Part shown: positions 17,708 through 54,039 of the stretch, one piece after another
Position numbering within the stretch: the first letter of the stretch is position 1
Layout of the letters: each line of letters begins with the position of its first letter
From: a virus
Length of the DNA: 64,000 bases
IMG/VR virus record: IMGVR_UViG_3300034072_002191
Span: 1-64,000 of that record
Strand: one strand, 5' to 3'
Position numbers and translations under genes: made by a program
Notes under the pieces: generated by a model
The model's database searches: none
Told to the model about the DNA's origin: nothing
The model's input: the letters and a program-made list of their open reading frames with translations, nothing else

Positions 17708-17712
17708 TCGGG
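17708..17712. repeat. Target-site duplication, left copy (TCGGG)
   Basis: Five bases TCGGG directly before the TG that starts the Mu-like element. The identical five bases follow the CA that ends it at 54034. Mu-type transposition makes 5-bp duplications. Confidence 0.85.
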
Positions 17713-17738
17713 TGAAGCGTGACACGTGAAGCCGGAGT
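17713..17738 (+). repeat. Right-end terminal inverted repeat of Mu-like element
   Basis: Starts TGAAGCGTGACACGTGAAGC. Aligned without gaps to the reverse complement of 54009-54034 it matches at 18 of 26 positions, including TGACAC and GGAGT. A further TTTGACACAA lies at 17741-17750. These are probably transposase binding sites (inference). Confidence 0.8.
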
Positions 17739-17817
17739 CTTTGACACAACTCCCCGGAGCATTCCAACGTCCGCTTAGAAGCGCCCGAGCCGCCGTTGAG
17801 CAGCTCCATAGCCGCCC

Positions 17818-18612
17818 CTAGAACGCCGCCGCTTCGTCCGCGCCCCAATCCTCGATCCGCAGTTCCCAACGGGTGCGCCCTTTGCTGGCGCGCTCATATT
17901 CTCGGGCCTGGCGAAAGATGCCGTAGTGAACCCGGCGCCGAAGGCCGGCAGTCCTGTCGGGGTCCTCCACCACCAGTAGCGGCCTGCTCTCGCCACGATC
18001 CAGCGAGATCTCGAATAGCGTGTCGACCTCGTCGTCGGTCAGGTCGCCAAGCGTCCAGGCCCACGAGCTTTTCCGCACGCCCTCGACAACCGCGAACCCG
18101 CCATCGGGAAGCGAGGTGACGGAGCCGGTGTCGATCGCGCGCCGTCCGCTGCCCCATTCGTGCCCCCAGCTCGGGGTGAAGGAGCGACCGACCATGAGGA
18201 CGCCTGCAGATAGCGCGGGCGAGCCGGCAGGCTGCGCCACGGTGAGCCTGACATACCGAACGCTCGCCGTGGTCGCGTCGCCGAACCAGAGGGCGTGGCT
18301 TAGCGCTGGGAAGCGGCCGGCGACGTCAGGCACCCGAAGCGCGGTCGAGCTGGCGATGGAGACGCTGGTATAGTCGGTCGTGCCCCCTGTGATCGTCCAG
18401 GTCGCGGCAGCGGCCGCCGGTTGAAGGTAGCCAAGGAAGATCGTGTTGATCGTCCGAACCTGGCCGAGATCGAGATCGAGCGTCACGGCGCCAGTCGCTG
18501 TGTCCATCCACACTTCTCGTGGATCTGGCGTCAGGAGGTTCGCCACGCCCGACCCTCGCGAGGTTGCGACGGCAGCGATCGGCATCGGCTGCAGGATCAA
18601 AAGGTTCTTCAT
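17818..18612 (-). CDS. Tail tip/baseplate protein with galactose-binding-like fold
   Basis: 264 residues. MDTATGAVTLDLDLGQVRTI and SVRYVRLTVAQPAGSPALSA resemble F5/8-type C (discoidin-like) sandwich strands: D-L-G followed by R-Y-V-R-L. It is the most distal structural gene of the Mu-like element, downstream of the tip protein, so it likely sits at the tail end and may contact the cell surface (inference). The start overlaps the stop of the next gene upstream (ATGA). Confidence 0.6.
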   Translation of the reverse strand: MKNLLILQPMPIAAVATSRGSGVANLLTPDPREVWMDTATGAVTLDLDLGQVRTINTIFLGYLQPAAAAATWTITGGTTDYTSVSIASSTALRVPDVAGRFPALSHALWFGDATTASVRYVRLTVAQPAGSPALSAGVLMVGRSFTPSWGHEWGSGRRAIDTGSVTSLPDGGFAVVEGVRKSSWAWTLGDLTDDEVDTLFEISLDRGESRPLLVVEDPDRTAGLRRRVHYGIFRQAREYERASKGRTRWELRIEDWGADEAAAF

Positions 18613-18977
18613 GCCGCCAGCTTCCTTAGAACGGTGACCGTGGAAAGGCCGGTCGCCAAGTTGTCGGCCGCACCGAGCACGAACACGTCGACGCCATTGT
18701 CGTAGCCCAGGCGGCCGATCTGGAGCGTGATCACCTGGCCGCGATAAGCCTGCCAGCGGCCTTTCAGGATATGCTCATCCATCACTAAGGGACCGCTCAA
18801 GAACGCGAGCTGGCGGGCAGCTTCGGTTGCAGCGGCGGACTTGAAGGCGATGCTCGATGCGCGCTCCACCGTGAGTGCGTCTGCGCCCCAAAGCGCGGCG
18901 CGGGTGGTGTCCTCTGCCACCACCCACAGCTCCTCCGATTGAAGCCATTGCGCAAACAGGGGATCGACCGAAGCCAT
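18609..18977 (-). CDS. Tail-associated hypothetical protein
   Basis: 122 residues, mixed alpha/beta, no family recognised. It sits between two tail genes with a coupled stop-start. The C-terminal region GYDNGVDVFVLGAADNLATG is beta-rich. Structural role inferred from position. Confidence 0.5.
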   Translation of the reverse strand: MASVDPLFAQWLQSEELWVVAEDTTRAALWGADALTVERASSIAFKSAAATEAARQLAFLSGPLVMDEHILKGRWQAYRGQVITLQIGRLGYDNGVDVFVLGAADNLATGLSTVTVLRKLAA

Positions 18978-18980
18978 CGG

Positions 18981-19235
18981 TTAGCGGTTCGCTTCGGTTT
19001 CGAGGTTGTACATCACGCTGAGGACGGAGCTAAGCTGAACAAGCAGCGGGCTCATCGGCGCCTCGGTGGCGACGCCCGACATGGCCCGCCCGAGCGCGGT
19101 CTTGGTGGCCGCATATGCGTCGCTGCCGATAGCATCGAGCACCGCCTGCTTCCAGGCCGGCACCGGCGTCGGCGCGGGTTGGGGAATCGGAAACGGATCG
19201 ATGGAGCCGTTCGGCACCTCATTCTCTTCGGCCAT
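18981..19235 (-). CDS. Small tail-region protein with Pro-rich linker
   Basis: 84 residues: an acidic start, a Pro-rich stretch (PFPIPQPAPTPVPAW), then a helical domain. Three bases separate it from the downstream gene. No family recognised; likely a tail accessory protein by position. Confidence 0.5.
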   Translation of the reverse strand: MAEENEVPNGSIDPFPIPQPAPTPVPAWKQAVLDAIGSDAYAATKTALGRAMSGVATEAPMSPLLVQLSSVLSVMYNLETEANR

Positions 19236-19274
19236 TCTACTCTATCCTTTCAGACGTTGATCATCGGTACGCAG

Positions 19275-19970
19275 TTACATGCCAGTCAGGTCGACCAGCC
19301 AAAATCGCCATTGCTTGTAGACCTGCTGCCCCGGTTCACCCGTGGTCGGGCCGCTCATGACATCGCGGTTCACCGACTTGACGCCGGCATTCGCAGCGTC
19401 GGTGTATCCGCCGAAAATATATGTCCGATAGCGTCCGTTGCCGAGATCGGAGACGAAGAAGCCACGGTCTGCCAGAAGCACGCCGTACTTCTTACCGCCT
19501 GGGACCGGCTGCAGGTTGTCGATCGAAGCCAAGTTCGAATAGCCGGGCGGCAAGATGGCGAGCGGGCGGCGGATATCGTCGAAGATCAGTTTCCCGGCCG
19601 CGTCGAAGCACTCGAACGTCGCCTCGCTAGATCTGTCCCCCGGGTGCCTCCCGAAGAGGTACAGATCGCAGCTACCAGCCTTGAGCCCGACAAACCGCAG
19701 GGTGTTGGCGCTCGACGCGATCGCCGTGGCGCACTTGTCCCCGGTGATGACGACGATCGGCGCCTCGGCCAAGCCCAGGCCGCCAACCTCCACCCATTCA
19801 ATCGGCTGCTGCGTCGTCGTGTTCAGGAAGGGCGGCGAAGTTGAGGACGTGGTGGAAATCGTCGTGCCGGCGTTCGGGCCGACCGAGACCTTCTTCAGGA
19901 AGACATAGGGGGATTGGTCGACGCTGAACATCAGCCGCCCCGCGCCGTCCCACACATCAAGGTAGCTCAT
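19275..19970 (-). CDS. Tail protein (231 aa)
   Basis: Beta-rich with repeated Gly/Tyr turns (YRTYIFGGYTDAANAG) and WRFWLVDLTGM at the C-terminus. It starts at the ATG overlapping the previous gene (ATGA). Probably a receptor-binding or tip-decorating subunit downstream of the large tip protein; no family recognised. Confidence 0.5.
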   Translation of the reverse strand: MSYLDVWDGAGRLMFSVDQSPYVFLKKVSVGPNAGTTISTTSSTSPPFLNTTTQQPIEWVEVGGLGLAEAPIVVITGDKCATAIASSANTLRFVGLKAGSCDLYLFGRHPGDRSSEATFECFDAAGKLIFDDIRRPLAILPPGYSNLASIDNLQPVPGGKKYGVLLADRGFFVSDLGNGRYRTYIFGGYTDAANAGVKSVNRDVMSGPTTGEPGQQVYKQWRFWLVDLTGM

Positions 19971-20263
19971 ATGTACCCGTACTCCAGGATCACCGGCTGA
20001 CGGCTGTCGATGTATGGAGACGGATCGGGCACCCACGACAGGGTGTTGCCCGACAGCGTAAACTTCGGCTGATAGCTGGTCGCCACGGCATTCGAATTGT
20101 TCACGAAGTAGACGGGCGAATAGGTCGCCCACTCCGCGACGGTGATGCTGCCGGCGTCATTCGGGCCGATATTCACCCGCCCGATGAACTTCATGTTGAA
20201 GACGGAAGCGTCGATCACCAACGCCCCGTCCTTGTTCCACACCTGAAAGCCGCCATCGGTCAT
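19967..20263 (-). CDS. Small tail protein (98 aa)
   Basis: Opens with MTDGGFQVWNKDGALVIDAS, a pattern shared by small tail proteins that follow large tip proteins in siphophages. Mostly beta strand. Coupled at both ends. Function beyond being tail-associated is unknown. Confidence 0.5.
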   Translation of the reverse strand: MTDGGFQVWNKDGALVIDASVFNMKFIGRVNIGPNDAGSITVAEWATYSPVYFVNNSNAVATSYQPKFTLSGNTLSWVPDPSPYIDSRQPVILEYGYI

Positions 20264-23200
20264 GATGGCGGCCCCATCCGGACGCGCATGACGTTGTTCG
20301 CATCATAAACCCGCCAGTTGCCGCCGCTGTATTCGGTGCGGTAGCCCCCGGAGGGAGACTCGAAGGTCACCTGGTCGGCACGGAAGCGCAGGCTGCTGAA
20401 ACTGCCGTTGTTCGCCAGCTTGATCCCGGCGATCCGGCCATTCGCGTCGATATTCAGCACCCACTGGCCGAAGACCTGCGCGACATTGTTGTTCAGGGTG
20501 GTGATCGCCGTCTGTTGCGAGCTGATCGTCACGCCCTGCGTCGAAACCGTGCTACTGAGCGATGCGTATTGCTGGCTCACCGTCGAAAGCGCCTGATACG
20601 TTTGGTAGATGCTGGCTTCAGACGAATAGGGCGTGACCGAGGTCCCGCGCTCCAATTTGATCTGACGAACTGCAGCCCCACTTGTGCCGAGGTTAGGCGC
20701 GCTCGTCATATTTGCAGCGACGAACCGCACGCGGCACCAAGCGGTGCCGGCCGGGGATGTCGCATACATGGCGAGATTCTGCCGGTTCACTCCTGGAGTG
20801 TTCCAAAAGGAAGGCTGCGTCACATTCGGCCCCCAGCTGTGGCCCAGCTCGTTGATCTGGTCGGATGCCGAATAGAAGATCAGTTCGAACCGGCAGTAAG
20901 CATTCGCCGATGCGTTCCAGACGTTCGCGTCCCCCGAGAGAACAAGTACCGCGTTCTGCTCCATTGGGATCAAGCCGCTGTCGAGGATAACGATACGCTC
21001 CCCGTCAGCGGTGGCGTTCCCCGAGCCCCAGAAGAAGTAGGAGCCCCAGGAGTCGCGAGCCGTACCCCATCCGCCGACCACATCGTGCCAGCCTTGTGTG
21101 TAACCGGCCTCCCCGCTTCCGTTTGGCGCGAGGTTAGGGTTACCCGCGACCAAGCGCTGCGTGATCTGGGCGACATTGCCCTGGAGCGTGCTGGTTGCCG
21201 ACTGCAGGGAAGAGATGCTCGACCCTTGCGTGGTCATCTGAGATTGCATGGTCACGCGCTGGCCATCCAGCGTGGAGATCGCCTGATACGATTGCGTTAG
21301 CGAAACCTCATTGGAATAGACGGTGGGTACTGGACTGCGTTCGAACTTCGCCTGGCGGACCGCGGCGCCGCTCTGCCCGTCGTTGGTCATGTTGCCGAAG
21401 ATGATCCGGCAGCGCGCCCACATTGCTTGGGTGTGGTTCGGCGACACGCCCGACACCGCCAGGTTCTTGCGATTCTGCCCCGGCGAATTGCCGAACCACA
21501 GGCCCTGCACCGCAGGCCCGCCGTACACAGGGCCGATCTGCTGCGTCATGCCGGCGTCGGCAAAGAAATACACCTCAAGCCGCGCATAGGAGTTGCCCGC
21601 CGCGTTGTAGGCGCTCGCGTCGATCGTGAAGGTAAACGGCAAGCCGGGATCGAACAGAACCGGGTTGTGGTACAGCACCACCGCCCGCTCACCGGAAGTC
21701 TGGGCTCCCGAGCCGTTCCACTGCGCATAGCTTCCCCAGACGTTGCCGGAGATGATCGACCAGGCGCCGATCTCCTGCGACCAAGCCCGCAGGCCGTCCT
21801 CAAAGCCGCCGTTGCCCAGCAGGTTGGGGCTCCCCGCCACCAAGCGGGTCTGCACCGTCGCCATGTCGCCCTGTAGGTTGGACGTGGCCGTCTGAAGCGA
21901 GGAGATCGAGGTCGATTGCGTGCCCAGGGTGGTGCTGAGCTGCGCCACCTGTTCGTTCGCCGTCGTGATCGCGGTGAAGGCTTGCGCGACGGACGCCTCG
22001 TTCGTGTAGGGCGTAGCTGCGGCGCCAAGCTCCAGCTTCACCAGTTGGACGGCCACCTGCCCCGAACTGGGCAGGTTCTGGCCAATGATCCGCACGCGAG
22101 CATTGACGGCACCCGCCGGCGCGGTCCCGGTCACCACGGAGCCGAGGCGATTGCCTGCATCCGCAAAGCCGAGCGGGGCGTTGCGAACCGGCCCGGTCGA
22201 GCCGGAGAGGACATTGCCCGAGGCATCGTACCAGAGAATATCGGCATACATCGACGCCCCGGCTCCGGTAACGCGCCCGCGATAGGAGAGCGTATATTGC
22301 CGGCCGACTGAAACCGGCACGAAGTCGCTGACGATGAACGCCGTGGCAGGCGGATTATTACAAAAGGCGGAGCGGCCCTCGGCGTCGGCCGTAGCTACGC
22401 CCCAGGTCCCTGCGCCGGCGCCCCAGTTGGCGAGGCCGTTTTCGAACCCGCCGTTCTTCACCAGGTTCATGTTTCCGGCTTGGACGGTCTGTGTGAACGT
22501 CGCGAGGTTACCCGCCGTCGTAGAGGCCTGGCTGGTGACGTTCGAGATCTGCGTCCCGTAGGTGGTCAGCAGCTGCCCCTGAGACGTGTTGATGCCCTCG
22601 GCCGAGGTGATCCGCTGCGTCAGATCCGGAATGCTGGTCGTAACCAGGCCGCTCACGCTCCCCTGGAGCTGAGATATGAGGCCCTGGGCTGTAGCAATGT
22701 CCCGCTGCGCCTGGGAGATCGAGGCTTCAAGGGCAGCCCTGGCGGCGGCGACCTGGTCGCGCACCGGTACCACGTTCCCCGATGTGTCCTTCAGCGCATT
22801 GAGGGCCGTGTTGGCCGAGCCCTGCGCGGTGTCGGCGGTGCCCTTCGCGGTATCCGCAGTGGACTGGGCCTGCACCACCGCCGCTTGCAAGTTCACGACG
22901 GTCGAGCCGTCGCCGAACACAACGTCGGTCGCCAGCACGATCCCGGCCAAGGCATCGCGGGTCATGACATGCTGGTTGCGCCGATAGCCAAGCCGACGGC
23001 GCGAGACGGGACGGAAGGTCGCCTTGCGGGTCACATCTACGCTGCGCGCCCGCACCACGGGCGTCCCCCATGCCCATTCGCGCAGAATGATCCCGCCGGC
23101 ATCTAGCACCCACATCAGCGACACATCGCTCAGCAGCGCGTCGAGAGCGGCGGCAGCCGTCCCATTCTCATCCGCCGCGACCCAGCCCACTTCGGCCGGC

Positions 23201-24090
23201 CGGGCCGCGACCGCCGCCGCCACTGTGCCGGCGGCGAAGGGAATGGCGGACACGGTCGCGGCGATGCGTTCGGCAATTGCCGGCGCCGTCTCGACATAGG
23301 TCGCGCCAATCTCGCCCTTGATGTCAGCGCAGAGCGAGCCGGCCGGCTGGGTCCACCACTTCACACAGGCGATCGAGGGGCACACGACGCCGCCGCCCTG
23401 CGGCGCCACTGCCGCCTGAAGCGCCGCCCAGGTGGCCGCGATCGACCCTTGCCAGGCCAGCAGCGTCAGGGTGGCGGCATTGGCCCCCTTGTCTCGCACG
23501 GCCGAAAACTCGGCCCACTGGCGCGAGGGGTCACCAAAGCAATAGATCTGCCGCGCTGCATCGATGCACTCGCCTTCCAAGTTCCACACCCGGCCCCATG
23601 CGCGCCGCTTGATCTTCCCCTGCCACTCCACCGGTCCCTCGATGCCGCCGGTGCCCGCGAACCGCGAGGTAAGGATCGGCTTCTTCAGGTCTGCCGCCGG
23701 GTCGGAAAGGCTCAGTGTCAGCACGCCGTCGTCTGTGCTGACGTCGATCACCTTGCCCGAGGTGATCTCCGCTGGGCTTGGCGCTTCGCCGAAGCGAACG
23801 GTCATCGCCGCGTCCAGCCAGTGTAGGCCGGCGAGCTCCGCCAGCGCGGCCGAGCTGCTTGGCGCCCAGCGTACGGTCATCGCCTGGGGCACGCTGCCGC
23901 CGCCCAGATCCTTGCCGTCGAACTCGGTGGAGCTGACGATCGTCGGCAGGCCGGCCAGGCCGCGCCGCCAATGCTGCCCCAGATAGAAAGAGGGCTCGGA
24001 GCCGCCGGCGCCGGAGAGCCGCGTCGTCACCACCGCACCCGTCGTGGCCGATCGCGGGCTGGCTTCGATCAGGATAAGGGGGGCGGCCAT
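20260..24090 (-). CDS. Large tail-tip/host-specificity protein with repeated modules
   Basis: 1276 residues. The first 400 form a globular domain typical of tail hub proteins (GSEPSFYLGQHWRRGLAGLP). Residues about 400-530 are coiled coil (TADTAKGTADTAQGSANTA). Three modules then follow, each opening with an N-L-x-x-N-G-(G/S)-x-E signature (NLVKNGGFENGLANWG, NLLGNGGFEDGLRAWS, NLAPNGSGEAGYTQGW) and ending before a coiled-coil linker; they look like carbohydrate-binding sandwiches. It probably carries the receptor-binding function. Translational overlap with the tape-measure gene. Confidence 0.8.
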   Translation of the reverse strand: MAAPLILIEASPRSATTGAVVTTRLSGAGGSEPSFYLGQHWRRGLAGLPTIVSSTEFDGKDLGGGSVPQAMTVRWAPSSSAALAELAGLHWLDAAMTVRFGEAPSPAEITSGKVIDVSTDDGVLTLSLSDPAADLKKPILTSRFAGTGGIEGPVEWQGKIKRRAWGRVWNLEGECIDAARQIYCFGDPSRQWAEFSAVRDKGANAATLTLLAWQGSIAATWAALQAAVAPQGGGVVCPSIACVKWWTQPAGSLCADIKGEIGATYVETAPAIAERIAATVSAIPFAAGTVAAAVAARPAEVGWVAADENGTAAAALDALLSDVSLMWVLDAGGIILREWAWGTPVVRARSVDVTRKATFRPVSRRRLGYRRNQHVMTRDALAGIVLATDVVFGDGSTVVNLQAAVVQAQSTADTAKGTADTAQGSANTALNALKDTSGNVVPVRDQVAAARAALEASISQAQRDIATAQGLISQLQGSVSGLVTTSIPDLTQRITSAEGINTSQGQLLTTYGTQISNVTSQASTTAGNLATFTQTVQAGNMNLVKNGGFENGLANWGAGAGTWGVATADAEGRSAFCNNPPATAFIVSDFVPVSVGRQYTLSYRGRVTGAGASMYADILWYDASGNVLSGSTGPVRNAPLGFADAGNRLGSVVTGTAPAGAVNARVRIIGQNLPSSGQVAVQLVKLELGAAATPYTNEASVAQAFTAITTANEQVAQLSTTLGTQSTSISSLQTATSNLQGDMATVQTRLVAGSPNLLGNGGFEDGLRAWSQEIGAWSIISGNVWGSYAQWNGSGAQTSGERAVVLYHNPVLFDPGLPFTFTIDASAYNAAGNSYARLEVYFFADAGMTQQIGPVYGGPAVQGLWFGNSPGQNRKNLAVSGVSPNHTQAMWARCRIIFGNMTNDGQSGAAVRQAKFERSPVPTVYSNEVSLTQSYQAISTLDGQRVTMQSQMTTQGSSISSLQSATSTLQGNVAQITQRLVAGNPNLAPNGSGEAGYTQGWHDVVGGWGTARDSWGSYFFWGSGNATADGERIVILDSGLIPMEQNAVLVLSGDANVWNASANAYCRFELIFYSASDQINELGHSWGPNVTQPSFWNTPGVNRQNLAMYATSPAGTAWCRVRFVAANMTSAPNLGTSGAAVRQIKLERGTSVTPYSSEASIYQTYQALSTVSQQYASLSSTVSTQGVTISSQQTAITTLNNNVAQVFGQWVLNIDANGRIAGIKLANNGSFSSLRFRADQVTFESPSGGYRTEYSGGNWRVYDANNVMRVRMGPPS

Positions 24091-27000
24091 CAGCTCGTCC
24101 TCGCCAGTTGGAGCAACCGCGCCACGTCACTGTCGGACACGCTCTTCCCCAGCAAATCGACGGCCTTCTTCAGCGTCGCCAGGATCTGCTCGTTCTGGGC
24201 GATGACCTTCGCGTTCTGGTCGTTGTTCTCGTCCAGGGCGGCATTGGTGGCGGTAAGCGCGGGATCGCTCGCACGCTGTTGCGCGGCGCTGACATCGGCA
24301 TTGACCTTGGCGATCGCGGCACGGGCCTGGTCGACGATCGCCGCGCGGTCGACCGCAAACCCGCCGGTCGTGCCATAGACTTCCTTCGATACCGAATTGA
24401 GCTGCTCGTACAGCGACGCGAGCTTGTCGCCTGCGCCATCGACGCCCGCCTGGACGTCGGCCTGTGCCTTTGTGATCGAATCGAGCAGGGCCGTGCGTCG
24501 ATCGACGGCCGAGCCCTCGAACATCGATCCGGAGGTCAGTTCGTCGACCAGGCGTTTCAGGGAACCGACCTGCTGATCCATCAACTTGTCGGTAAGCGCT
24601 ACCCGCTCCTTGGCATTCGCCGCCTCCACCTGGACGATGTCGAAGCCATATTCCCGCGCGATGCGCAGCCGATCCGCGGCTTCCTTCTCGAAGGCCTTGA
24701 ACGACTTGGTCAACTGGCCCGAAACGCCGCCCAGCAGATCCTCGACATTGCTGACCTTCAGCGCCTCCTGCATTGCCTTGTCGATGTCGCTGGACGATCC
24801 CAGCGCCTTCTGGACCGCGCCTGACAGCCCCTTGATCGCACCATCGGAAATCGCGTTTGCGATGGCCGCTCGAACTGCGCCATCGGCATCGTTGTTGTCG
24901 AACTTCAGGACGCCGTCGCGGTCGCCATATTTCCCGCCGACGCTGGTGCCGCCCGAGGGATCGACCCGGTAGCTGTCCTTGTACTTGTTGATGCTGACCG
25001 CAAAGCTGCCGACGTCGGCGCCGAGCGTGCTGGCGATCTTGCTGAGCGCGCCCTGGACGCTACCGGCGAGGTTGCCGAGATCCGTCTTCACCTCGGCCGA
25101 GTTGCCGCTGACGTTGGCCTTCTGATCGACGCTGGTGATCTGCGCCGACCCGCGCGGCGTCGACTTGAAGAGGTTGCCGACCAGGCCGCCAAGCACGGAA
25201 CCGATGATGTCGCCGCCGGGGATCGGGATGAAGCTGCCGATGGCGCCGCCGATCTGGGCACCGGTGCCGCTCATCTTGATGCCGAGGGCGTTCCCGAGGC
25301 CGGCCACCATCGAGCCCGTCGCGGCGCCGGACAGACCCTTGCCGATGTTCTCGCCGGCGAACTTGCCGATCGAGCCGCCGATATTCTTGGCCGTTTCCTT
25401 GTTCGTGAAGATGCTGGCGATCGACGTGGCGATGCCCCCGGTCGCCTTCGCGATCAGGGAGTCCGGGGTCATGGCCTCCTTGCGCTTGCCGGTGACGACG
25501 ATCTCGGGATTGAGGTTGGCAGCAATAGCGTCGCCGATCTTGGTCCCGATCTGGACCGTCCCGGCGCCGCCGGCACTGGAACTGACTGCGCCGGCGGCCG
25601 ACGATGCGGACCGCGCCAGGCTGTCCAGCGCCTGCGTCGTGCGACCGGTGGACGCGGTGACCTGGTCGACGGATGCCGCCATCCGAGCCGATGCGTCCTT
25701 GATGACGCTGGTCCCGTTCGCCTGATCCTTCAGGTCGCGGAACATGTCGCCGAATAGATCCTCGAAGAGCTTCTGGCCCTTCAGCGTGGCGAAGGCATCG
25801 AGCAGCTTGCCGGGTGTCTTGATGAACTGCCCGAGGTCGCCCCGTACCCACGCCTGGGTGGCCTCCCGGACCGCGCCCTCGACCGAGGAAACAGCGTCGA
25901 CATAGATCTGGGTTTTCTGGCGAAGAACGTCCACCTCGCGCTGTTCCGCGCGGAGAGCTTGGACCGACGCTAGGATTGCTTCTTTCTGATCCTCACGCAG
26001 GGGGCGCAGGTTCTTCTCCAGCGAATAGACCGTCCGGAGCGCCTCGGCCTGGTCGGTCTGGCCCCGTGCCTGGAGCTGGAGGATTGCGAGGGACTGCTGC
26101 TGCCCGATGATGAAGTCATTGTATGGCCGAACCAGGCCGGCTTCGATTTTGCCCTTCGCCTCGTCGAGCCGCTTTCCGAATGCGTCGAAGTCGGCCTGAT
26201 CGATCAAGCCGGCGGAGAGCATCCCTTTCTTCTTGCCGAGGATGCCATCCAGCGCCCCAATCGCCTTGGCAGCCTTGTCGGCGAGAGTCTCCGGTGCTGC
26301 GAAAGCCTCCTCGATCGAACGCAGCAGGCCCGTCTCCACGGTCTGCTTTGCATCCTTGGCACTGACAATCAGGGCCTCGAAGTTCGGCGGCTTTTTCCGG
26401 CTGAGATCGTCGATCAGGTCATCGAGCTGGCGGACGGCCTTGTCTGCTTGCTGCACCGCCGGCGGCGTCTGGCTGAACGCTTCCGTGATCGAGGCGATGC
26501 GATCGGCGGTATCGCGGCCGAACTCGTCGAGCGATGCCGTGGACTTCGGCTTCTTCGGCTTCGTCGTTTTGTACGGCTTCAGCGGATCGGCAACCCCTTT
26601 GCCGTCGACAGCGTCCCGCGCCATCCGCGCCGCAGCCTGGTCGTTCAGCGCTTGGGGAAGCGTGAACAATTCTTGCTTCAACGCGATGATCTGCTCGGTC
26701 GTGTAGCCGGCCAGCTTGCCCGCCTGAGCCATGCTGTCGACACGCTGACGGATTGCCGTGGCATCCATCTTGCCGGTGAGAACTTCATCCCGAAGCGCAC
26801 GAAGCGGCGCGGTCTCCTGCGAGATCGCGGCCTGCTGGCGCGTGCTGCCGGAGCCGCCGCCATAGCTGGCGCCGGGATTATCGGCGAGGTAGCCGCCGAT
26901 CGTGGTAAGCAGGCCAGGCTTGCCGAGGCCGCCGATCCTATCCCTGGCTGCCTTCTCATCCTGCTGCCCCTTCAGCAGCATAGCCTCGGCCTGCAGGCGG

Positions 27001-27902: not shown

Positions 27903-27909
27903 GGCCTGG

Positions 27910-28601: not shown

Positions 28602-28627
28602 GCTGCTGAACCTTTCTCTGCGAAACT

Positions 28628-43055: not shown

Positions 43056-43255
43056 GGCCGCGTCGCCCAGGCGGGGGGATTGGCGGCCGGTGCCGGCACG
43101 CCGGGCGCGGGCGCAAGCGGCAGCGCCGTCGTGCAGCCCGCGCATTCGGCGGAGCTGCGGCCGACGATCCAGTTCGTGCCGCCACAGCCGGGGCAGTGGT
43201 CGCCGGAATGATAGAGGGGCCGGTAGCCCCGTAATGTCGGAAGCATGTGATACAT
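43052..43255 (-). CDS. Small zinc-ribbon protein
   Basis: 67 residues with CPGCGG and CAGC pairs about 17 residues apart and a Pro/Ala-rich tail. The start overlaps the GemA stop, the stop overlaps the DUF2786 start. Likely a structural zinc ribbon; role unknown. Confidence 0.6.
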   Translation of the reverse strand: MYHMLPTLRGYRPLYHSGDHCPGCGGTNWIVGRSSAECAGCTTALPLAPAPGVPAPAANPPAWATRP

Positions 43256-44010: not shown

Positions 44011-44417
44011 AGGACGCTCCCCGTGAAGTGCGCGACGACCATGTCGCACAAGGCGAGAAAGGAGGGATCGCGCTGCCGCATGGCCTGCGCCTTAGCGACG
44101 GCATATCCGATGGTGGCGTGATCGCGGTCATCGAACGCCGGCGTGATCTGGCCAGTCGTTTTGCCTGCCCAGCGGTAGGCGAGCCAAATGGCGGCGAAGC
44201 GGGCGCGCACTGCACCTTTGGAGTGCGTCCGGCCGATCATCGCCTCGCGGCTGACGCCGGTCTCGTATGACACGCGGTCGATGATCTGGGACACGGTCGG
44301 AACCGCGTGGATCACCGTCGTATCCGGCTCGGAGATCGCCGCGCGGATGCGCGCGGCCGTCACTTCGTCTAGCTCGCCCTGGAGCACGACGAAGCGGACC
44401 TTCACCGGCGCGTTCAT
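44007..44417 (-). CDS. DnaA domain IV-like DNA-binding protein
   Basis: 136 residues. Residues about 48-110 (SYETGVSREAMIGRTHSKGA, then WLAYRWAG and DDRDHATIGYAVAKA) follow the domain IV of DnaA, including the D-H-A-T-(V/I) signature that contacts DnaA boxes. There is no ATPase domain. It could bind DnaA-box-like sites in phage or host DNA to steer replication, or act as a regulator. Encoded right after MuB. Confidence 0.75.
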   Translation of the reverse strand: MNAPVKVRFVVLQGELDEVTAARIRAAISEPDTTVIHAVPTVSQIIDRVSYETGVSREAMIGRTHSKGAVRARFAAIWLAYRWAGKTTGQITPAFDDRDHATIGYAVAKAQAMRQRDPSFLALCDMVVAHFTGSVL

Positions 44418-45385: not shown

Positions 45386-45474
45386 GGTAGGTGCGTTCCT
45401 TGGGTGTTGTGGGGCTTCTGCCCCCGTGCCGGCCGCGTGCGAGGTTCCAGCTCGCGCGCGGCCAATTCCTTCAT
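45382..45474 (-). CDS. Thirty-residue gene between A and B
   Basis: The ATG overlaps the MuA stop (ATGA, 45471-45474) and its TGA overlaps the MuB start (ATGA, 45382-45385). The product starts MKELAARELEPRTRPARGQK and is basic. Exact stop-start overlaps on both sides suggest it is translated, at least to couple B translation to A. No homologue is known to me. Confidence 0.45.
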   Translation of the reverse strand: MKELAARELEPRTRPARGQKPHNTQGTHLP

Positions 45475-47450: not shown

Positions 47451-47452
47451 GT

Positions 47453-47914
47453 TCAGTTCCTCCCGGTGGAGATCACGGGCGCGGCGCCAGCGAGGGCACG
47501 GCGTCGCCGCTTCAGCTCTTCCATTTGTCGGTCGATCTGGCCGAGTTCGGCCGTCAGGATTTCTTCCCCGACCAGCAGTGCGGCGCCGATGCGCCGGGTC
47601 AGCCGGTCGAGCAGGTCATGGCGTTCGGTGACGGCGGTCAGCGCCAGCAGCCGCGCGAACGAAATGGCGTGGTTCTCCCGCGCCTCGGACGCATAGGCAT
47701 CCAGCATTGCCTTCGAGACGTCGTCGTCGAGCAGCTCCGAAACCGCGCCGGCGAGCGCGAACCGCGAGCGGGTGTCTTCCTTGAGCATCACCGCGACGGT
47801 GGCCGCGATCTCGCGGTCCAGACCCGCCAGCGCGGACGCGGTCTTCGCCGGCTGCGGCACCTCGAAGGTGAACGCGAACTGGCCAGGCGGTACGGAGGGG
47901 CGGCGCTTACCCAT
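47453..47914 (-). CDS. Hypothetical protein upstream of transposase
   Basis: 153 residues, helical, ending in a coiled coil (LGQIDRQMEELKRRRRALAG). No family recognised. It lies three bases before the transposase gene and overlaps the MuA-like paralogue gene upstream, so it may be a partner in transposition by context only. Confidence 0.5.
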   Translation of the reverse strand: MGKRRPSVPPGQFAFTFEVPQPAKTASALAGLDREIAATVAVMLKEDTRSRFALAGAVSELLDDDVSKAMLDAYASEARENHAISFARLLALTAVTERHDLLDRLTRRIGAALLVGEEILTAELGQIDRQMEELKRRRRALAGAAPVISTGRN

Positions 47915-48674
47915 TGTCACCCTTCAGCCGGCGCCGAAGCGTCTTTTCAGATGGGAGGTTTGGGTAGCGTTCCAGCAGCCACTGATAGGCACGGCGGAAG
48001 GACGGGTTGCCTGCGCCGCGCAGATAGCCTTGCAGCGCCTCTAGCGCTTCGCTTTCAACATGCGCTCGTTTGCCTCCACCCTTGTATCGCGGACACAGTT
48101 GCTGGGCACGGTCATTGACCCCCAAACCGGCAACACGGCTGAACCAACTGGAGATGCTGCGGCCGGAAACCTTATGGTTGCTCGCGACCAAACCGATAGC
48201 CGCTCCCTTCGGGATGCCCGTGCTGACCAGTTGTTCGACCTCCGCGAGGATGCCTGCGCGGCGGCGTGCGATGAACTCGAAGGGAGTCGGCGTCTGCCAA
48301 GGGCTGGATCCGCGAACGGCATCCGCGTTGTGCTCGTGCATAATGGCGCGTAGGCACGCATCCCGGTATTTCCGGCTCGCCCAGGGCGGGCAGCGCGGCA
48401 CGAGCCCAGCAGCGTAGACTTGGTCGGCGAACGACGGATCGTAGACTTTCAGCAGGTATGAGGTCCGACCGAGCCGAACTGCCTCTACCCATTCATGTGC
48501 GGGGATCTTCCAAAGAAAGCGCTGGGCGAACTGCTTGCGCTTCTCAGACTCACCAATTCGTTGGTCGAAGTGAGACATTGCGACAGAGCGACACCAGCGC
48601 AAAGATGCGATCTCGCGCGTCTCTCGCTCGATCATCGCATTTGCGAGGACGATGCTAGATTGGCGACCGCTCAT
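47907..48674 (-). CDS. MuA DNA-binding-domain paralogue without catalytic domain
   Basis: 255 residues. Residues about 141-251 align with MuA residues 122-233 of this element: V-AG-x-x-DR at the centre, KGGGKRAHVESEALEALQGY against GGGGKEVEVDEGAWQLLLSD, then PSF...Y and SEKTLRRRL against IERTLRRKF. The first 130 residues are unrelated. There is no DDE core. It could compete for transposase sites, help assemble the ends, or bind elsewhere. It starts at an ATG overlapping the previous stop. Confidence 0.75.
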   Translation of the reverse strand: MSGRQSSIVLANAMIERETREIASLRWCRSVAMSHFDQRIGESEKRKQFAQRFLWKIPAHEWVEAVRLGRTSYLLKVYDPSFADQVYAAGLVPRCPPWASRKYRDACLRAIMHEHNADAVRGSSPWQTPTPFEFIARRRAGILAEVEQLVSTGIPKGAAIGLVASNHKVSGRSISSWFSRVAGLGVNDRAQQLCPRYKGGGKRAHVESEALEALQGYLRGAGNPSFRRAYQWLLERYPNLPSEKTLRRRLKGDNG

Positions 48675-48943
48675 GCCATTGCTCCTGCGTTGGCGTCGCG
48701 GCCGGCCTCCTCGGCCGCGACTGGGGGCAGTTGGACGTCGCCGGTGGTGCGACCCGAGGCGGCGACAGAGGCGTCCAGGGGGATCGGGTGCGTGGCAGCG
48801 AGCTGCGCCACGGAACGGTGATCAAGAAACGGATAGGAGCCGTCCCGCGCGCGGGCAGGCCGGCCGGCACCTTCCAGGAAGGCGACCAGGCGCTCGACGC
48901 GCGCGGGGGTCAGATCGGTTGGGGCGCCGCGAAGATTGCTCAT
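48671..48943 (-). CDS. Hypothetical early protein (90 aa)
   Basis: First half helical and basic (LTPARVERLVAFLEGAGRPA), then SYPFLDHRSVAQLAATHPIP, a motif resembling one in the outer-prophage gene at 13013-13279. No family recognised. ATGA overlaps at both ends. Confidence 0.5.
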   Translation of the reverse strand: MSNLRGAPTDLTPARVERLVAFLEGAGRPARARDGSYPFLDHRSVAQLAATHPIPLDASVAASGRTTGDVQLPPVAAEEAGRDANAGAMA

Positions 48944-49236
48944 GCGTCGGTCCCTTCGTCACGCTCGCCCAGCAGCGCGCAGGTGCGCGCATAGGCTTCG
49001 GTTGCAGACCGCTCAGCGCGCCGGCCGGCGGCGATGCGGTCGAGAAACTCGGTCTCCGGCGCCGTGACGGCGACCACCCGCCCGCGCAGCGCTTCGATGC
49101 GCTGCTGGCGATCGCGGATGCGGTCCAACGACAGGTTCGTCCGGGCACGTTCCATCGACGTGCGGTCCTGGACGGCACGCTGGAACACGAGGCGGCACTG
49201 CCGCAGGCGCTCGGCCTCGGACACCTGGCGGGCCAT
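48940..49236 (-). CDS. Helical early protein (98 aa)
   Basis: Almost wholly helical and Arg-rich (ERLRQCRLVFQRAVQDRTSM), suggesting a coiled coil. No family recognised. Coupled by ATGA on both sides within the early operon. Confidence 0.5.
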   Translation of the reverse strand: MARQVSEAERLRQCRLVFQRAVQDRTSMERARTNLSLDRIRDRQQRIEALRGRVVAVTAPETEFLDRIAAGRRAERSATEAYARTCALLGERDEGTDA

Positions 49237-49688
49237 CACTGCGCACCACCCAGCGGCTGCTGGTGGCTGCAGCCTACGTCGCCGCGAACGCCGCAACGGG
49301 GGCAGGGCTCGCGGGACGCCGCGTAGCGCGGGCCGCCGAGATCGACGACCAGGCCGAGCGCCCCGGCATCGGCGAACCGCCGGCCGCCAAGCGCTTTCAC
49401 ATAGGCGTCGGACGCGCTCGCGGCGGCCTTTTCCCAAGCATCGGGGAAATAGTCGTGGTTCGCCACGCGCGCGCCGCCAGCGCGGGCGCGGGCATCGCGG
49501 CGCTGGCGATCCTTCTTCCAGGCGTCGATCGCGCCGCGCAGCCGCGCCAGCGTCGTCGGCTTCGGCGAATCGGCCAGCCGCATGCTTTGAATGGTCGACA
49601 TCGGGAAGCCGGTGACGCGGCAGAACTCCGCCAGCTTCGCTTGGTCACGCGCCAGCAGCGCGTCGAGGTGCGACAGCAGCGCGCTCAC
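49236..49688 (-). CDS. HTH protein with C-terminal cysteine pairs
   Basis: 150 residues. The N-terminal part AEFCRVTGFPMSTIQSMRLA looks like a helix-turn-helix; the C-terminus has CPRCGVRGDVGC and a terminal His. A possible sequence-specific DNA-binding protein of the early operon; function unknown. Confidence 0.55.
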   Translation of the reverse strand: MSALLSHLDALLARDQAKLAEFCRVTGFPMSTIQSMRLADSPKPTTLARLRGAIDAWKKDRQRRDARARAGGARVANHDYFPDAWEKAAASASDAYVKALGGRRFADAGALGLVVDLGGPRYAASREPCPRCGVRGDVGCSHQQPLGGAQ

Positions 49689-50206
49689 CGCCGCGTCTCC
49701 GCTTCGTCCTTGGCCTGCCCGAATGCTTCCTGGTACCGGAGCGCATCGTCATGATCTTCGGTCATGCAGGCGATGCGATGGGTCTGCTGCAGGAGCTGCT
49801 GGGTTGCGGGACTGATCTTCGTCCAGTGGTTCCAGCAGAAGGCGTGCCCTCGCCGAACGGGAACATCGCATCCGACCGCCGCGCATGGCGTCGACCCGCC
49901 GCCGCGCGGACGGTGCGCGGGCCTGAGAAGTGCGCCGGGCGTCACGCCGCGCCGGGCCAGTTCGGCGCGCAGCAGCTCGGTATCGACGGTCAGCAGGTCG
50001 ACCGTGTCGCCCGCCAGCTCGATCCCGCGATCGCGGTTGGGCAACCGCCGGACCTTGCCGGCGCGTTCGAGCTGATCGACGTAGCGGTGCGCGTTGGCCT
50101 TCGTCGTCTCGAACCGCGCGCCGATCTCCTGATAGGTCGGCGCGAAGCCAGCGCACGTGATGCGGTCGCGGATGAAGTCGAGCACTTCCACCTGGCGCGG
50201 GGTCAT
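49685..50206 (-). CDS. LexA DNA-binding-domain-like regulator with zinc motif
   Basis: 173 residues. Residues 1-60 (MTPRQVEVLDFIRDRITCAG, then APTYQEIGARFETTKANAHR and RAGKVRR) match the winged helix of LexA closely. No S24 peptidase follows; instead there is a helical part and CAAVGCDVPVRRGHAFCWNH, a likely zinc site. It may bind SOS-box-like sites without self-cleavage. Confidence 0.75.
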   Translation of the reverse strand: MTPRQVEVLDFIRDRITCAGFAPTYQEIGARFETTKANAHRYVDQLERAGKVRRLPNRDRGIELAGDTVDLLTVDTELLRAELARRGVTPGALLRPAHRPRGGGSTPCAAVGCDVPVRRGHAFCWNHWTKISPATQQLLQQTHRIACMTEDHDDALRYQEAFGQAKDEAETRR

Positions 50207-50418
50207 TGCAGCATCCCCCAGACGAGGACGCTCCAGGGCACGACGTTGGCCGCGATCAGCATCGCCAGGAACAGCCAGTCGCCACACCGCATAGTGGGCA
50301 AGCCGGCGGGGAGAATGTACGCGCCGGTGCATTCGAACGCGCTGCAGTTCGGGCAGCCTCCAAAGTCCGCTTCCAGGGTGAACTGGCGGCAGCGCGGGCA
50401 GATCTCAGCGTTGCTCAT
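50203..50418 (-). CDS. Zinc-ribbon membrane protein
   Basis: 71 residues: CPRC and CPNC pairs in the first 25 residues, then a transmembrane helix (WLFLAMLIAANVVPWSVLVW). A membrane-anchored zinc ribbon. Unknown function. Coupled at both ends. Confidence 0.6.
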   Translation of the reverse strand: MSNAEICPRCRQFTLEADFGGCPNCSAFECTGAYILPAGLPTMRCGDWLFLAMLIAANVVPWSVLVWGMLQ

Positions 50419-51404
50419 TGGTCGATTGCTCCTGATCCACGGCGCATCGGCGCCAGCAGCTTCTGGGCTTCGGTCGGCAGTAGGGCGTGGAAGTCCGGGG
50501 ACTGGAGCAGGCCCAGCCGCTCGCGAGCATCCATGCGGGAGAGGGTGCCGATGATCGTCGCGAACCGCTTCGCGCGCGGATCGCCAACCGGTCGGTTGGT
50601 GCCGCGCACCAGCTGGAGCGCGTCGGAGACGGACTTCGCGGCGTTGCCATAGCCGTGATCGATCATCCGACTGGCAACACGCTCTTGCTCGTCCCGTGGC
50701 AACTTGGTGAGCTGGCGCAGCTGAGCCGCATTTCTCAGCACCGGATGCCGGGCCTCGCGGAACAGGGCGATCACCGATGGGGCGAGCCCGCGATAGAGAG
50801 CCAGATCATTCCGGATCGTGCGGTCCGAGAAGCCCAGTTCCGCGCCCACTTCACGCGACCAGCCATAGACGTTGGAAATTGTTTCCAACGTCCGCTCTGC
50901 TTCCGCTTTCACGGCGCGCGGGACCGAAAGCTCGCGGTGCTCCACGTCCTTGATGCCGGCCTGAGATCGCTTGAGCATCACCAGCTCGGCGATGAACGCG
51001 GCGCGGTCGATGGGGTCGAGATCTCGACGCCACAGATTTTCGGTGACCTCGCGCATGCGGCGATGGGCACGGGACCCTGAAACTTCACGAGCCTCGATTA
51101 GCTCGATCCCGGCCAGCTCGGCGCCGGCATGCCGATGCGCGCCTGCTACCAGGAGCCACCCAGGCTGGCCTTTCTCGCGGCAGATCTCGATCGGCGTCTG
51201 CTGGCCTTCGCGCGCCATGATGTTGCCGAGTGCCTCAGCCCACACGGGGTCGATTGGCCGCAGTCGCTCACCTCGGCGGATTTCCGAGACGGGAACCAGA
51301 AGGATCTCGCCGGCAATAGCAGGGAGTATTTCAGCGTCGGCAGCTGGGACGATGTCGTTCTGGACAGTCTGGACCGAAAGATCGGTGGCGGATGCAGTGT
51401 TCAT
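50415..51404 (-). CDS. ParB-like protein
   Basis: 329 residues from ATG at 51404. The N-terminal ParB/Srx-type domain runs about 30-110 (ILLVPVSEIRRGERLRPIDP, then GWLLVAGAHRHAGAELAGIE); the middle has a helix-turn-helix (GWSREVGAELGFSDRTIRND). No ParA partner is present. It could act as a DNA-binding or CTPase-type protein in early regulation. Found in early regions of several transposable phages. Confidence 0.78.
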   Translation of the reverse strand: MNTASATDLSVQTVQNDIVPAADAEILPAIAGEILLVPVSEIRRGERLRPIDPVWAEALGNIMAREGQQTPIEICREKGQPGWLLVAGAHRHAGAELAGIELIEAREVSGSRAHRRMREVTENLWRRDLDPIDRAAFIAELVMLKRSQAGIKDVEHRELSVPRAVKAEAERTLETISNVYGWSREVGAELGFSDRTIRNDLALYRGLAPSVIALFREARHPVLRNAAQLRQLTKLPRDEQERVASRMIDHGYGNAAKSVSDALQLVRGTNRPVGDPRAKRFATIIGTLSRMDARERLGLLQSPDFHALLPTEAQKLLAPMRRGSGAIDQ

Positions 51405-51769
51405 GCTCCGACACCCCGCGTCTGATCCAGGTGCTTCCAGATTCGGCCAAGCGCGCTGCGCGAAGGGGCACGTTCCGGCCCGAACTCGGCCGAAATGACC
51501 CCTACCGCTTGCTCCAAAGGCATCTGCCGATGGAGGCGAATGACCATCTCCCGGACAGGTAAGTCCGACCAAACCTTCGGATAGCGTTGAGACCGGAGTT
51601 CGCCGTCCTGGCGGCAGAGTCGGAAGACCGGCGGCGAGTAGGTAACCGCGATCGCATAGCCACGGCTTTCCACGACAGTTTGCGTGGCAAGGAGGCGCTC
51701 AAGCTGAGCGATGCGGCGATCCAGCGCTTCCCAGCGCGCGGCGTCTGAGCTGTTCGAGGCCATGTTCAA
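51401..51769 (-). CDS. Hypothetical early protein (122 aa)
   Basis: A predicted coiled coil at the start (ALDRRIAQLERLLATQ), a beta region and a helical C-terminus with VREMVIRLHRQMPLEQAVGV. No family recognised. Lies between Ner-like and ParB-like genes in the early operon. Confidence 0.5.
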   Translation of the reverse strand: MNMASNSSDAARWEALDRRIAQLERLLATQTVVESRGYAIAVTYSPPVFRLCRQDGELRSQRYPKVWSDLPVREMVIRLHRQMPLEQAVGVISAEFGPERAPSRSALGRIWKHLDQTRGVGA

Positions 51770-52014
51770 CGCCCGCCAGCATTTAGACGATGCGGGCGAC
51801 GACGCTTTTCGCTACCGTCCAACTTCATGGAATCGGCCTCATCCTGGAGAACCTCTTCGATCGCTTCGCGCACGCGGCGGCTCGTTCGCCCGCGAAAGAG
51901 ATCGCTCACGCCCGTCTTCGGCAGGCCCTTCGCTTCGATGAAGGCAGCGACAGTCCGGTACCGTTTCCTCAGCACCGCCTTCACGTCCTCCGGATGGGTC
52001 CGGTCCAACATCAT
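51766..52014 (-). CDS. Ner-like regulator
   Basis: 82 residues. HPEDVKAVLRKRYRTVAAFI, then AKGLPKTGVSDLFRGRTSRR matches the Ner/Nlp helix-turn-helix family. It is the first gene of the early operon, divergent from the repressor, as in Mu, and should dampen early and repressor transcription. An ATG one codon later is an alternative. Confidence 0.82.
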   Translation of the reverse strand: MMLDRTHPEDVKAVLRKRYRTVAAFIEAKGLPKTGVSDLFRGRTSRRVREAIEEVLQDEADSMKLDGSEKRRRPHRLNAGGR

Positions 52015-52046
52015 GGGTCAACCTTCCAACTCTTTGTCCCTATTTG

Positions 52047-52100
52047 TTGGACCATGCCCCATTATATTGGGCCTGCCAACCCATAATTGTGGACCTGCCG
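52047..52100. promoter_or_regulatory. Operator and early promoter of the Mu-like element
   Basis: Three direct repeats of a GG(A/G)CC(A)TGCC unit start at 52049, 52069 and 52091, 20 and 22 bases apart, so they lie on roughly the same face of the helix. A perfect -10 TATAAT for the leftward early operon is at 52061-52066 (minus strand), between the first two. Binding by c or Ner here would control early transcription. Confidence 0.65.
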
Positions 52101-52101
52101 C

Positions 52102-52806
52102 ATGATCGAGGGTGCGCCGCAGCGATTGCGCGAGGAGAGGGAGCGCCTTGGGCTGAACCAGCGAGATGCGGCAGCACTCGGATCAGTCAGCAAAAACACA
52201 CAGTTAGCTTATGAGAGTGGGTCCTCTCCGATTCCGCTTAGCTATCTGGGTCTGATCGGCCTGAAGGGATTCGACGTCAGCTACATCGTCCTTGGCGTGC
52301 CGGCGGCAGATAGCCCGCGCCGACAGCTGCACGACGAAATGAGGGCTTCATTGGCGCGGTCAACAGCGCCGGCTACGGCTGCGCCGCGTGCCGATGATCT
52401 TGATTTGGTTGAGGTCCACGAAATTGACCTCGCCTATGGTCTGGGCGGCACCTTTTCCGATTTGCCGGTAGAAACCCAGGTGCTTCATTTCCCCCGGACC
52501 TGGCTTGAGACAATTACGAAGACGCCGCCTTCGCAGCTGACCTTTGCGCATGGCCGGGGCGACTCCATGATGCCAACCATGATGGATGGCGACATTGTGC
52601 TCATCGACCGCTCACAGCGCACCGTACGAGAACAGGACGCAATATGGGCGTTCACAGTCGGAGACATCGCAATGATCAAGCGACTTCGTATCCGCAGCGA
52701 AACGGTTCACATTCTGTCCGACAATGATCGGGTTCCGCCCGACGAAGCGCATCCCGAAGAGGTTAACGTCGTCGGGCGTGTAGTTTTCATTGGCCGCCGG
52801 ATCTGA
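52102..52806 (+). CDS. S24-type c repressor of the Mu-like element
   Basis: 234 residues. N-terminal helix-turn-helix (LNQRDAAALGSVSKNTQLAY) and a C-terminal S24 domain with Ser155 (GDSMMPT) and Lys193 (MIKRLR). It is unlike Mu's own c, which is related to MuA, and so should be cleaved on SOS induction. It is only distantly related to the outer prophage repressor. The ATG at 52102 is preferred to a TTG five codons earlier. Confidence 0.88.
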   Translation: MIEGAPQRLREERERLGLNQRDAAALGSVSKNTQLAYESGSSPIPLSYLGLIGLKGFDVSYIVLGVPAADSPRRQLHDEMRASLARSTAPATAAPRADDLDLVEVHEIDLAYGLGGTFSDLPVETQVLHFPRTWLETITKTPPSQLTFAHGRGDSMMPTMMDGDIVLIDRSQRTVREQDAIWAFTVGDIAMIKRLRIRSETVHILSDNDRVPPDEAHPEEVNVVGRVVFIGRRI

Positions 52807-52816
52807 GGGAACGATA

Positions 52817-53320
52817 ATGCTGTTGCTTGGGCTCACCGCCATGGTCCTCGGCCAGACAGGACCGGTCGTCGTGCGACGTAAAGATCCGATAACCGACCAG
52901 GCAGCAGTTGTCGCCGCGTGGGAAGCCAATGGCTCGGCGATAGCTGTTGGCTGCACTCCAGCCACGAACACCATTAGGGTGATCTATATGGCTGAGCGGC
53001 ACTATTTCGGGCGCACTGGCCTTCTTACAAGCGCGTGGGGACTTACGTATCGCTTCGATGAAAGCGAGCCGGTTTCCCAAGATTGGTTGCATGATGACCA
53101 CACTGCCGAAATGTCCGGAAGTGGCCGGATCGCTCCATTCATCGACAAGCTAGCAACGTCGAAGCGTCTTGTGATCAGGGCAAAAGAGAACTTCGGGCGC
53201 GGCGACTCATTCGACGCCATATTCGATTTGGGAGATGCGCTTCCTGCGTTGAAGGAGGTTCTTCGTGAGTGCCGTACGAACAAGATCGTGGGGAAGCTAA
53301 CTGTTAAATTTGGGCTTTAG
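52817..53320 (+). CDS. Exported hypothetical protein downstream of repressor
   Basis: 167 residues starting with a short hydrophobic segment (MLLLGLTAMVLGQTG) that may be a signal peptide. The rest is mixed, with YFGRTGLLTSAWGLTYRFDE. No family recognised. It is co-directional with the repressor, so probably expressed in the lysogen: a candidate conversion or exclusion gene. Confidence 0.55.
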   Translation: MLLLGLTAMVLGQTGPVVVRRKDPITDQAAVVAAWEANGSAIAVGCTPATNTIRVIYMAERHYFGRTGLLTSAWGLTYRFDESEPVSQDWLHDDHTAEMSGSGRIAPFIDKLATSKRLVIRAKENFGRGDSFDAIFDLGDALPALKEVLRECRTNKIVGKLTVKFGL

Positions 53321-53339
53321 TTAGAAGGCAGTAATTCCG

Positions 53340-53504
53340 ATGGACGTCGACAAGGCCATAGAAGCCGCAGCTCGCGCGCTATGCCGATTAGCCGGCAACC
53401 CGGAGAACACCCGCTTCGAAGGTAAGCCGATGTGGCAGAGCTACATCCCGGAAGCGACCGCCGCGATCACGGCCGCTCTGCCCTTCATCCAGGGCCACAA
53501 CTAG
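53340..53504 (+). CDS. Small protein with ARALC...GKP-W domain
   Basis: 54 residues. ARALCRLAGNPENTRFEGKP-MWQSYIPEA parallels the first 45 residues of the protein at 1-345. GGCAGTAATTCCG precedes the ATG; the ribosome-binding site is weak. Belongs to the group behind the repressor. Unknown function. Confidence 0.6.
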   Translation: MDVDKAIEAAARALCRLAGNPENTRFEGKPMWQSYIPEATAAITAALPFIQGHN

Positions 53505-53505
53505 C

Positions 53506-53619
53506 GTGGCTCGCTCGGTCCTCGGTCGGCTTGAGGCCAGCATCATGGGCGCCCTGGTGATCGCCGCGATGATCGGCACGATCGTTGGGGCGGTTCGGAT
53601 GCTTAGCCTGGTGCGATAG
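53506..53619 (+). CDS. Tiny membrane protein (37 aa)
   Basis: A GTG start one base after the previous stop. One transmembrane helix (MGALVIAAMIGTIVGAVRML) with basic ends. No family recognised. Similar in size and style to the tiny membrane proteins near 1.7 kb, without clear sequence similarity. Confidence 0.4.
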   Translation: MARSVLGRLEASIMGALVIAAMIGTIVGAVRMLSLVR

Positions 53620-53710
53620 GGGTCCCACTTCAGCGAATCCGCATATGTTGGAAGGCATCACCGAAAGTGGCAGATTTCCGTGATTTCTGCGCCTCAGACA
53701 GCAAAGACGC

Positions 53711-53738
53711 AAAGTGGGACCCGTTGAGGTCCCACTTT
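53711..53738. other. Strong hairpin, with a third copy of one arm nearby
   Basis: AAAGTGGGACC and GGTCCCACTTT form a perfect 11-bp stem around a 6-base loop. A further GGGTCCCACTT lies at 53620-53630, just after the tiny gene, and could pair with the same arm. No T-tract on either strand, so alternative pairing or protein binding is more likely than plain termination. Confidence 0.55.
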
Positions 53739-54008
53739 CGCGCTCGCGTAAATTGTTGCGGCGTGAGAGAATTGCCCTCAGACACTCCTAAGAGGACGCA
53801 TTTCCGCGTCTTAGAGGCCCTTGAGAGGCTGTTCAGCCGCCGGTCGCCGACTCTGACACATCCTGTCAAAGGGCTGTCTATTTCACGCGTGCGTTTTGAC
53901 AACGTCGCTCCCACCGATGCGCGCTAGCCCCTGTTGCAAACCCACGGATTTCCGCCATTTGTCCGCGAAAGATCGGGTAAGCGGGGCTAATCCCGGAATT
54001 CAACCTTC

Positions 54009-54034
54009 ACTCCAGCAGCAAGTGTCAACTCTCA
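54009..54034 (-). repeat. Left-end terminal inverted repeat of Mu-like element
   Basis: On the minus strand it starts TGAGAGTTGACACTTGCTGC and matches the right end (17713-17738) at 18 of 26 positions. It ends the element with CA on the plus strand, followed at once by TCGGG. Confidence 0.8.
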
Positions 54035-54039
54035 TCGGG
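54035..54039. repeat. Target-site duplication, right copy (TCGGG)
   Basis: Five bases identical to 17708-17712. Joining the two sides here restores the intergenic spacer between the antiterminator and HNH genes of the outer prophage. Confidence 0.85.

Follow-up and report, generated by a model that had tools for sequence, protein, structure and literature searches.

The 64,000-nt window analyzed here (positions 1 to 64,000 of IMG/VR virus record IMGVR_UViG_3300034072_002191) carries, judging from its sequence, a Mu-like phage inserted in a ∼125-nt structured leader between a NusG-family regulator and the packaging/head operon of another prophage. It is likely that the inner phage transposed into the outer prophage and thereby broke a late antitermination module made up of a NusG paralogue and an RNA, probably trapping the outer phage.

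Boundaries and class of the inner element

The initial annotation had proposed a complete Mu-like prophage nested in a lambda-like prophage, with TG and CA termini and identical TCGGG flanks. All of these were confirmed in the letters (Table 1), the CA lying at 54033 to 54034. The two 26-bp ends were identical at 18 positions, as proposed, and in a scan of the whole window for TG...CA pairs with identical 5-bp flanks and a spacing of 30 to 44 kb (n = 2,561 candidate pairs), this was the only pair with at least 17 end matches (runner-up, 16). By itself an 18/26 match is modest sequence evidence; proof of the boundaries is carried by the ends of relatives and by the empty sites described below.

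TABLE 1 Features of the nested prophages and of the split element
Feature	Position	Strand	Remarks
Outer tyrosine integrase	2205..3473	-	Profile match
Outer CI-like repressor (HTH + S24)	11254..12192	-	Profile match
NusG-family late regulator (NGN + long helix + KOW)	16961..17701	+	phrog_6386; predicted structure; position where lambda has Q
Left part of split element	17669..17712	+	H0, 17676-17691; H1, 17693-17706 (holds stop codon)
Left copy of 5-bp target duplication, TCGGG	17708..17712	.	Single copy at empty site in L001
Mu-like prophage	17713..54034	-	36,322 bp; TG...CA ends; early and late genes on - strand
Mu right end	17713..17760	+	Tandem pair of end-type sites 22 bp apart; core motif matched 13/13 at 17720 and 11/13 at 17742
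Tape measure protein (siphovirus-type tail)	24090..27902	-	Tail gene of the inner phage
Major head protein	30891..31787	-	68% to Rhodobacter phage RC1
Mu I-like protease/scaffold	32201..33370	-	Profile match
Mu F-like head protein	33978..35225	-	Profile match
Mu-type portal	35218..36894	-	1.7e-102
Terminase large subunit of inner phage	36944..38704	-	Profile match
Mu gp27-like protein	38701..39294	-	Profile match
Endolysin	40997..41743	-	Profile match
Late transcriptional activator (C/Mor type)	41762..42118	-	phrog_836
GemA-like protein	43255..44049	-	Profile match
MuB ATPase	44414..45385	-	Profile match
MuA transposase	45471..47450	-	DDE_2 (2.5e-48), Mu I-gamma, Mu C-term
ParB-like nuclease-domain protein, early region	50415..51572	-	Domain assignment
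Ner-like HTH protein	51766..52014	-	phrog_925
Inner repressor (HTH + peptidase S24)	52087..52806	+	Divergent from early genes
Mu left end, TGAGAGTTGACACTTGCTGCTGGAGT	54009..54034	-	Mu left terminus at 54034
Right copy of 5-bp target duplication, TCGGG	54035..54039	.	Read directly in sequence
Right part of split element	54035..54119	+	P2-P3; H4, 54084-54103; tail, 54104-54119
Outer HNH endonuclease, first late gene	54120..54476	+	Profile match
Outer terminase small subunit	54598..55158	+	Profile match
Outer terminase large subunit	55160..56875	+	Profile match
Outer portal, ClpP-type protease, major head protein	56886..60596	+	Profile matches; head protein HK97-type

Four relatives (G005, G033, G349, and G370) carried ends of the same design at equivalent places, each with its own 5-bp duplication (CCGCT, CCCGC, TCCAC, and CTGCA, respectively); in every case the pair of ends outscored all other candidates, which numbered in the hundreds to thousands. 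The elements so delimited spanned 37,180 to 39,917 bp, in agreement with the earlier view that the length of the inner element fits Mu-class genomes. With the window included, five elements gave five different duplications, showing that insertion sites vary. The equivalent left end of a closer relative, G003, matched at 22 of 26 positions and was followed by unrelated DNA, and no convincing end pair was found within the stretch fetched from G264. An IMG/VR search returned 45 matches to a 14-mer of the left end and none to the exact 20-bp right end. One further genome, G169, held three MuA homologues (50 to 51% identity) at separate loci (L096, L101, and L102), of which two lie 60 kb from each other in opposite orientation.

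The gene assignments placed all Mu-type functions within the proposed boundaries. MuA and MuB, the TG...CA ends with a 5-bp duplication, the varied insertion sites, and a Mu-type head module identify a Mu-like transposable phage. Its tail genes (tail tube, tape measure, and neck) were all siphovirus-type and indicate a long noncontractile tail; no sheath or tube genes of a myovirus, which the contractile tail of Mu itself would call for, were found in the inner phage. On sequence grounds the element is a new member of the siphovirus-type Mu-like phages such as Thiobacimonas phage vB_ThpS-P1, which is the ordinary part of this finding. Its MuA was 41 to 46% identical over 86 to 92% to those of Thiobacimonas phage vB_ThpS-P1, Rhodovulum phage vB_RhkS_P1, and Pelagibaca phage vB_PeaS-P1, and its major head protein was 68% identical to those of Rhodobacter phage RC1 and Rhodovulum phage RS1 and 52% to that of Thiobacimonas phage vB_ThpS-P1. 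Mu-type head genes and a size of 36 to 40 kb are shared with these alphaproteobacterial siphoviruses, whereas the inner element has a different host group and its own end sequences and sits inside another prophage. The annotation of Pelagibaca phage vB_PeaS-P1 likewise includes a ParB-like nuclease domain. With Escherichia phages Mu and D108 (∼35% transposase identity to D108), the element has in common a similar size, TG...CA ends, a 5-bp duplication, the A/B transposition genes, GemA, a C/Mor-type activator, a Mu-type portal, and the F and I proteins; unlike them, it encodes both S24- and LexA-type regulators and a ParB-like early gene, and contractile-tail genes were not found.

The outer prophage and its uninterrupted counterparts

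The outer phage carries an integrase, a CI-like repressor, and late genes in the order HNH, TerS, TerL, portal, protease, and HK97-type head protein, together with an O-like replication gene, and belongs with the HK97/lambda-type temperate siphoviruses. The host of both prophages is a Sphingomonas-type bacterium. Elsewhere in the window, on the minus strand, an 876-aa protein (4865 to 7495) has a C5-cytosine methylase domain that is confined to the N-terminal part, with ∼680 aa beyond the domain.

An uninterrupted outer prophage was sought in related genomes and found. The 20-mer expected after rejoining the flanks was present in Sphingomonas pituitosa NBRC 102491 and in one IMG/VR provirus; these were counted once, as the same prophage, because the coordinate offset between them is constant. 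The S. pituitosa sequence aligned to the left flank with 89% identity up to 17712 and to the right flank with 94% identity over 77 bp from 54035, and the two alignments overlapped by exactly 5 bp, the length of the duplication. Two further proviruses (L131 and L132) likewise aligned over the point at which the flanks are rejoined, and the downstream genes of L132 were those of the outer phage (HNH, 93%; TerS, 88%; TerL, 90%). Exact 20-mer matches in a Myxococcales metagenome-assembled genome and in Tritonibacter had flanks lacking homology and were dismissed as chance. The source record is a provirus of 80,691 bp, cut at gene ends, which without the insert would measure 44.4 kb, compared with 44.5 kb for the provirus in S. 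pituitosa. The empty sites in S. pituitosa, L131, and L132 establish that the nesting is real and that the outer phage also exists in uninterrupted form.

The initial annotation had also held that removal of the element restores a normal late-gene junction of the outer phage, and S. pituitosa and L132 bear this out; the site itself, however, is no neutral spacer, as it splits a conserved structured element. Similarly, the nesting and the ends stood as described, whereas the Mu and lambda labels needed amendment: the inner tail is siphovirus-type, and the late regulator of the outer phage is NusG-like rather than a lambda Q.

The NusG-like regulator and the structured element

The last outer gene before the insertion had a sole match, to phrog_6386 ("transcription antiterminator"). 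Pfam and PDB sequence searches with its product returned nothing useful and missed the NusG fold, and no INPHARED phage record matched by tblastn at 1e-5. The AlphaFold2 model (mean pLDDT, 80.7) gave NusG, RfaH, and Spt5 as the top Foldseek matches. According to this predicted structure, the protein has the NusG/RfaH fold, with the NGN and KOW domains of specialized NusG paralogues, and is not a member of the lambda Q family, although it occupies the Q position. The presence of rfaH-like genes on prophages has been mentioned in general terms (PMC7593976).

A structured element of ∼125 nt begins around the stop codon of the NusG-like gene and comprises hairpins H0 and H1, a P2-P3 stem, and hairpin H4. 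Leaders of diverse NusG-like homologues share these helices, with H1 around the stop codon. A covariance model built from 8 sequences (R1) recovered most other NusG-linked leaders at the predicted place; among held-out loci, four of four were strong matches (E values, 2e-15 to 3e-10) and a fifth, L150, matched weakly (E value, 0.11). A second model, from 20 sequences (R2), was used in a blind search with the RNA model alone; among 295 genomes of a single genus (that of G001), 33, or ∼1 in 9, were positive. Of 32 new copies, 29 lay directly behind a NusG-like frame or overlapped its end, a frame being counted at an E value of ≤1e-7 to the NusG-like profile (L173, a fragment, is included with 1.6e-8). 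The remaining three were L169, L179, and L186, the last of which may be a chance match. No NusG-like gene was present within the stretch fetched for L179, where an open reading frame just upstream of the RNA copy (538 to 1485) resembles, by eye, an IS6-type transposase. Elsewhere in the family and class, genomes with weak matches (E values, 0.001 to 0.01) lacked a NusG-like gene, and these matches were rejected as chance.

Across the 32 new copies, double changes were found in 20 of 24 pairs, with 118 double-change cells versus 31 ± 4.8 in shuffled alignments and a covariation score of 0.453 versus 0.158 when shuffled and ≤0.089 when partners were slid, although alignments fitted to a model lean towards that model's structure. 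The 20-sequence set agreed, and in an unfitted MAFFT alignment of the 8 sequences the signal was weaker but still present. RNAalifold alone, applied to the 32-copy alignment, recovered H0 and H1 and no other helices, and in most copies the folding energy did not improve on that of shuffled sequences (z, −2.1 to +0.6). Support for the structure thus comes from comparative sequence covariation only, not from minimum-free-energy z-scores. Enriched 9-mers in the leaders did not exceed shuffles; what is conserved in the leader is therefore its structure and not short sequence words. GGCGGAAGT was also considered as an ops-like site, a reading that lacked support and was dropped. No Rfam covariance model matched at the element with an E value of ≤1, and no description of this regulator and RNA pair was found in the literature searched; the RNA element, located between the NusG-like regulator and the virion genes, apparently has not been described so far.

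In the window, R2 matched both halves separately, one from 17669 (33.5 bits) and the other up to 54119 (64.6 bits). The split falls after H1, leaving H0 and H1 on the left and P2-P3 and H4 on the right, where the duplicated TCGGG resupplies the 5′ strand of P2 so that P2 is rebuilt.

Proposed effect of the insertion on the outer phage

As the sequence shows, a siphovirus-type Mu-like phage was transposed by MuA/MuB into the resident HK97/lambda-type prophage, generating the 5-bp duplication. The regulator and its leader most likely act together as a processive antitermination module for the late genes, comparable to LoaP with its leader hairpin or to lambda Q with qut, in which the NusG paralogue would be recruited by the folded nascent leader RNA and carry RNA polymerase through the late operon. 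The insertion keeps H0-H1 beside the regulator gene and P2-P3-H4 beside the late genes but sets them 36 kb apart, with opposing Mu genes between, and a loss of outer late expression is therefore to be expected. As a genome of ∼80.7 kb would also exceed what a ∼44-kb capsid can hold, the outer phage is probably trapped and, judging from the arrangement, its virion genes are probably disabled, while the inner phage could leave by replicative transposition.

It is possible, but doubtful, that this is a plain nested Mu-like prophage at a chance and harmless site, with the late operon promoter in the 85 bp to the right of the insertion. Late genes could still be expressed if a promoter lies there; transposable phages insert at many sites, as the five differing duplications illustrate, and the insertion is intergenic and breaks no reading frame. 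However, the target is a conserved, covarying element, and consensus scans, which are weak for this clade, found no promoter-like site in the 85 bp and no σ70 promoter or intrinsic terminator near the leader.

The element could also serve the NusG-like mRNA itself, as a 3′-end structure for autoregulation or termination without any action on the late operon, and most copies do have H0-H1 overlapping the reading-frame end. This seems improbable, as no U-run terminator was found and as, in L133, 903 nt separate the NusG-like stop codon from the complete element downstream, which stands near the terminase genes. The position of this copy, apart from the NusG-like gene, ties the element to the late side. 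The additional stretch of ∼900 nt in L133 spans 4700 to 5603.

Cos sites often lie beside terminase genes, as in lambda and HK97. The element adjoins HNH, TerS, and TerL, but that it is a DNA cos/packaging site of the outer phage, with packaging signals separated by the insertion, is very unlikely given that it covaries as base pairs, G-U included, is linked to a NusG-like gene in nearly all new copies, and stands before terminases of different, unrelated families where checked (phrog_9, 15, and 38), which is to be expected of an exchangeable control module rather than of a packaging site.

The proposed antitermination module resembles LoaP of Bacillus velezensis, a NusG paralogue beside its presumed target operon with a structured leader RNA, the dfn leader hairpin, that is needed for readthrough (PMC12691694). 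It differs in that the regulator is phage encoded and alphaproteobacterial, its presumed targets are virion genes, and the RNA is larger, has multiple helices, and overlaps the regulator's own stop codon. Like lambda Q and qut, regulator and element are positioned between early and late genes, but the protein has a predicted NusG fold, and the element is without an Rfam match. Antitermination is presumed to be RNA borne, as for HK022 put, which, in contrast, needs no protein partner.

The nested prophage provides a clean natural case in which one phage has probably disabled another and in which the ends, the target, and the empty sites are all resolved to single bases. Tracing the insertion target revealed the regulator and RNA pair, which has no Rfam family and occurs in roughly a ninth of the genomes examined from one genus. 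We lean, with some reserve, toward a broader picture in which late genes of sphingomonad temperate phages are run by a NusG paralogue recruited by its own dedicated multi-helix RNA of ∼125 nt, the module is swapped among phages whose packaging genes are unrelated, and a Mu-like phage silenced a competitor by inserting into it. If true, regulator and leader would constitute a compact antitermination pair, and RNA-guided NusG paralogues, so far represented by LoaP, would extend to the control of phage late genes.
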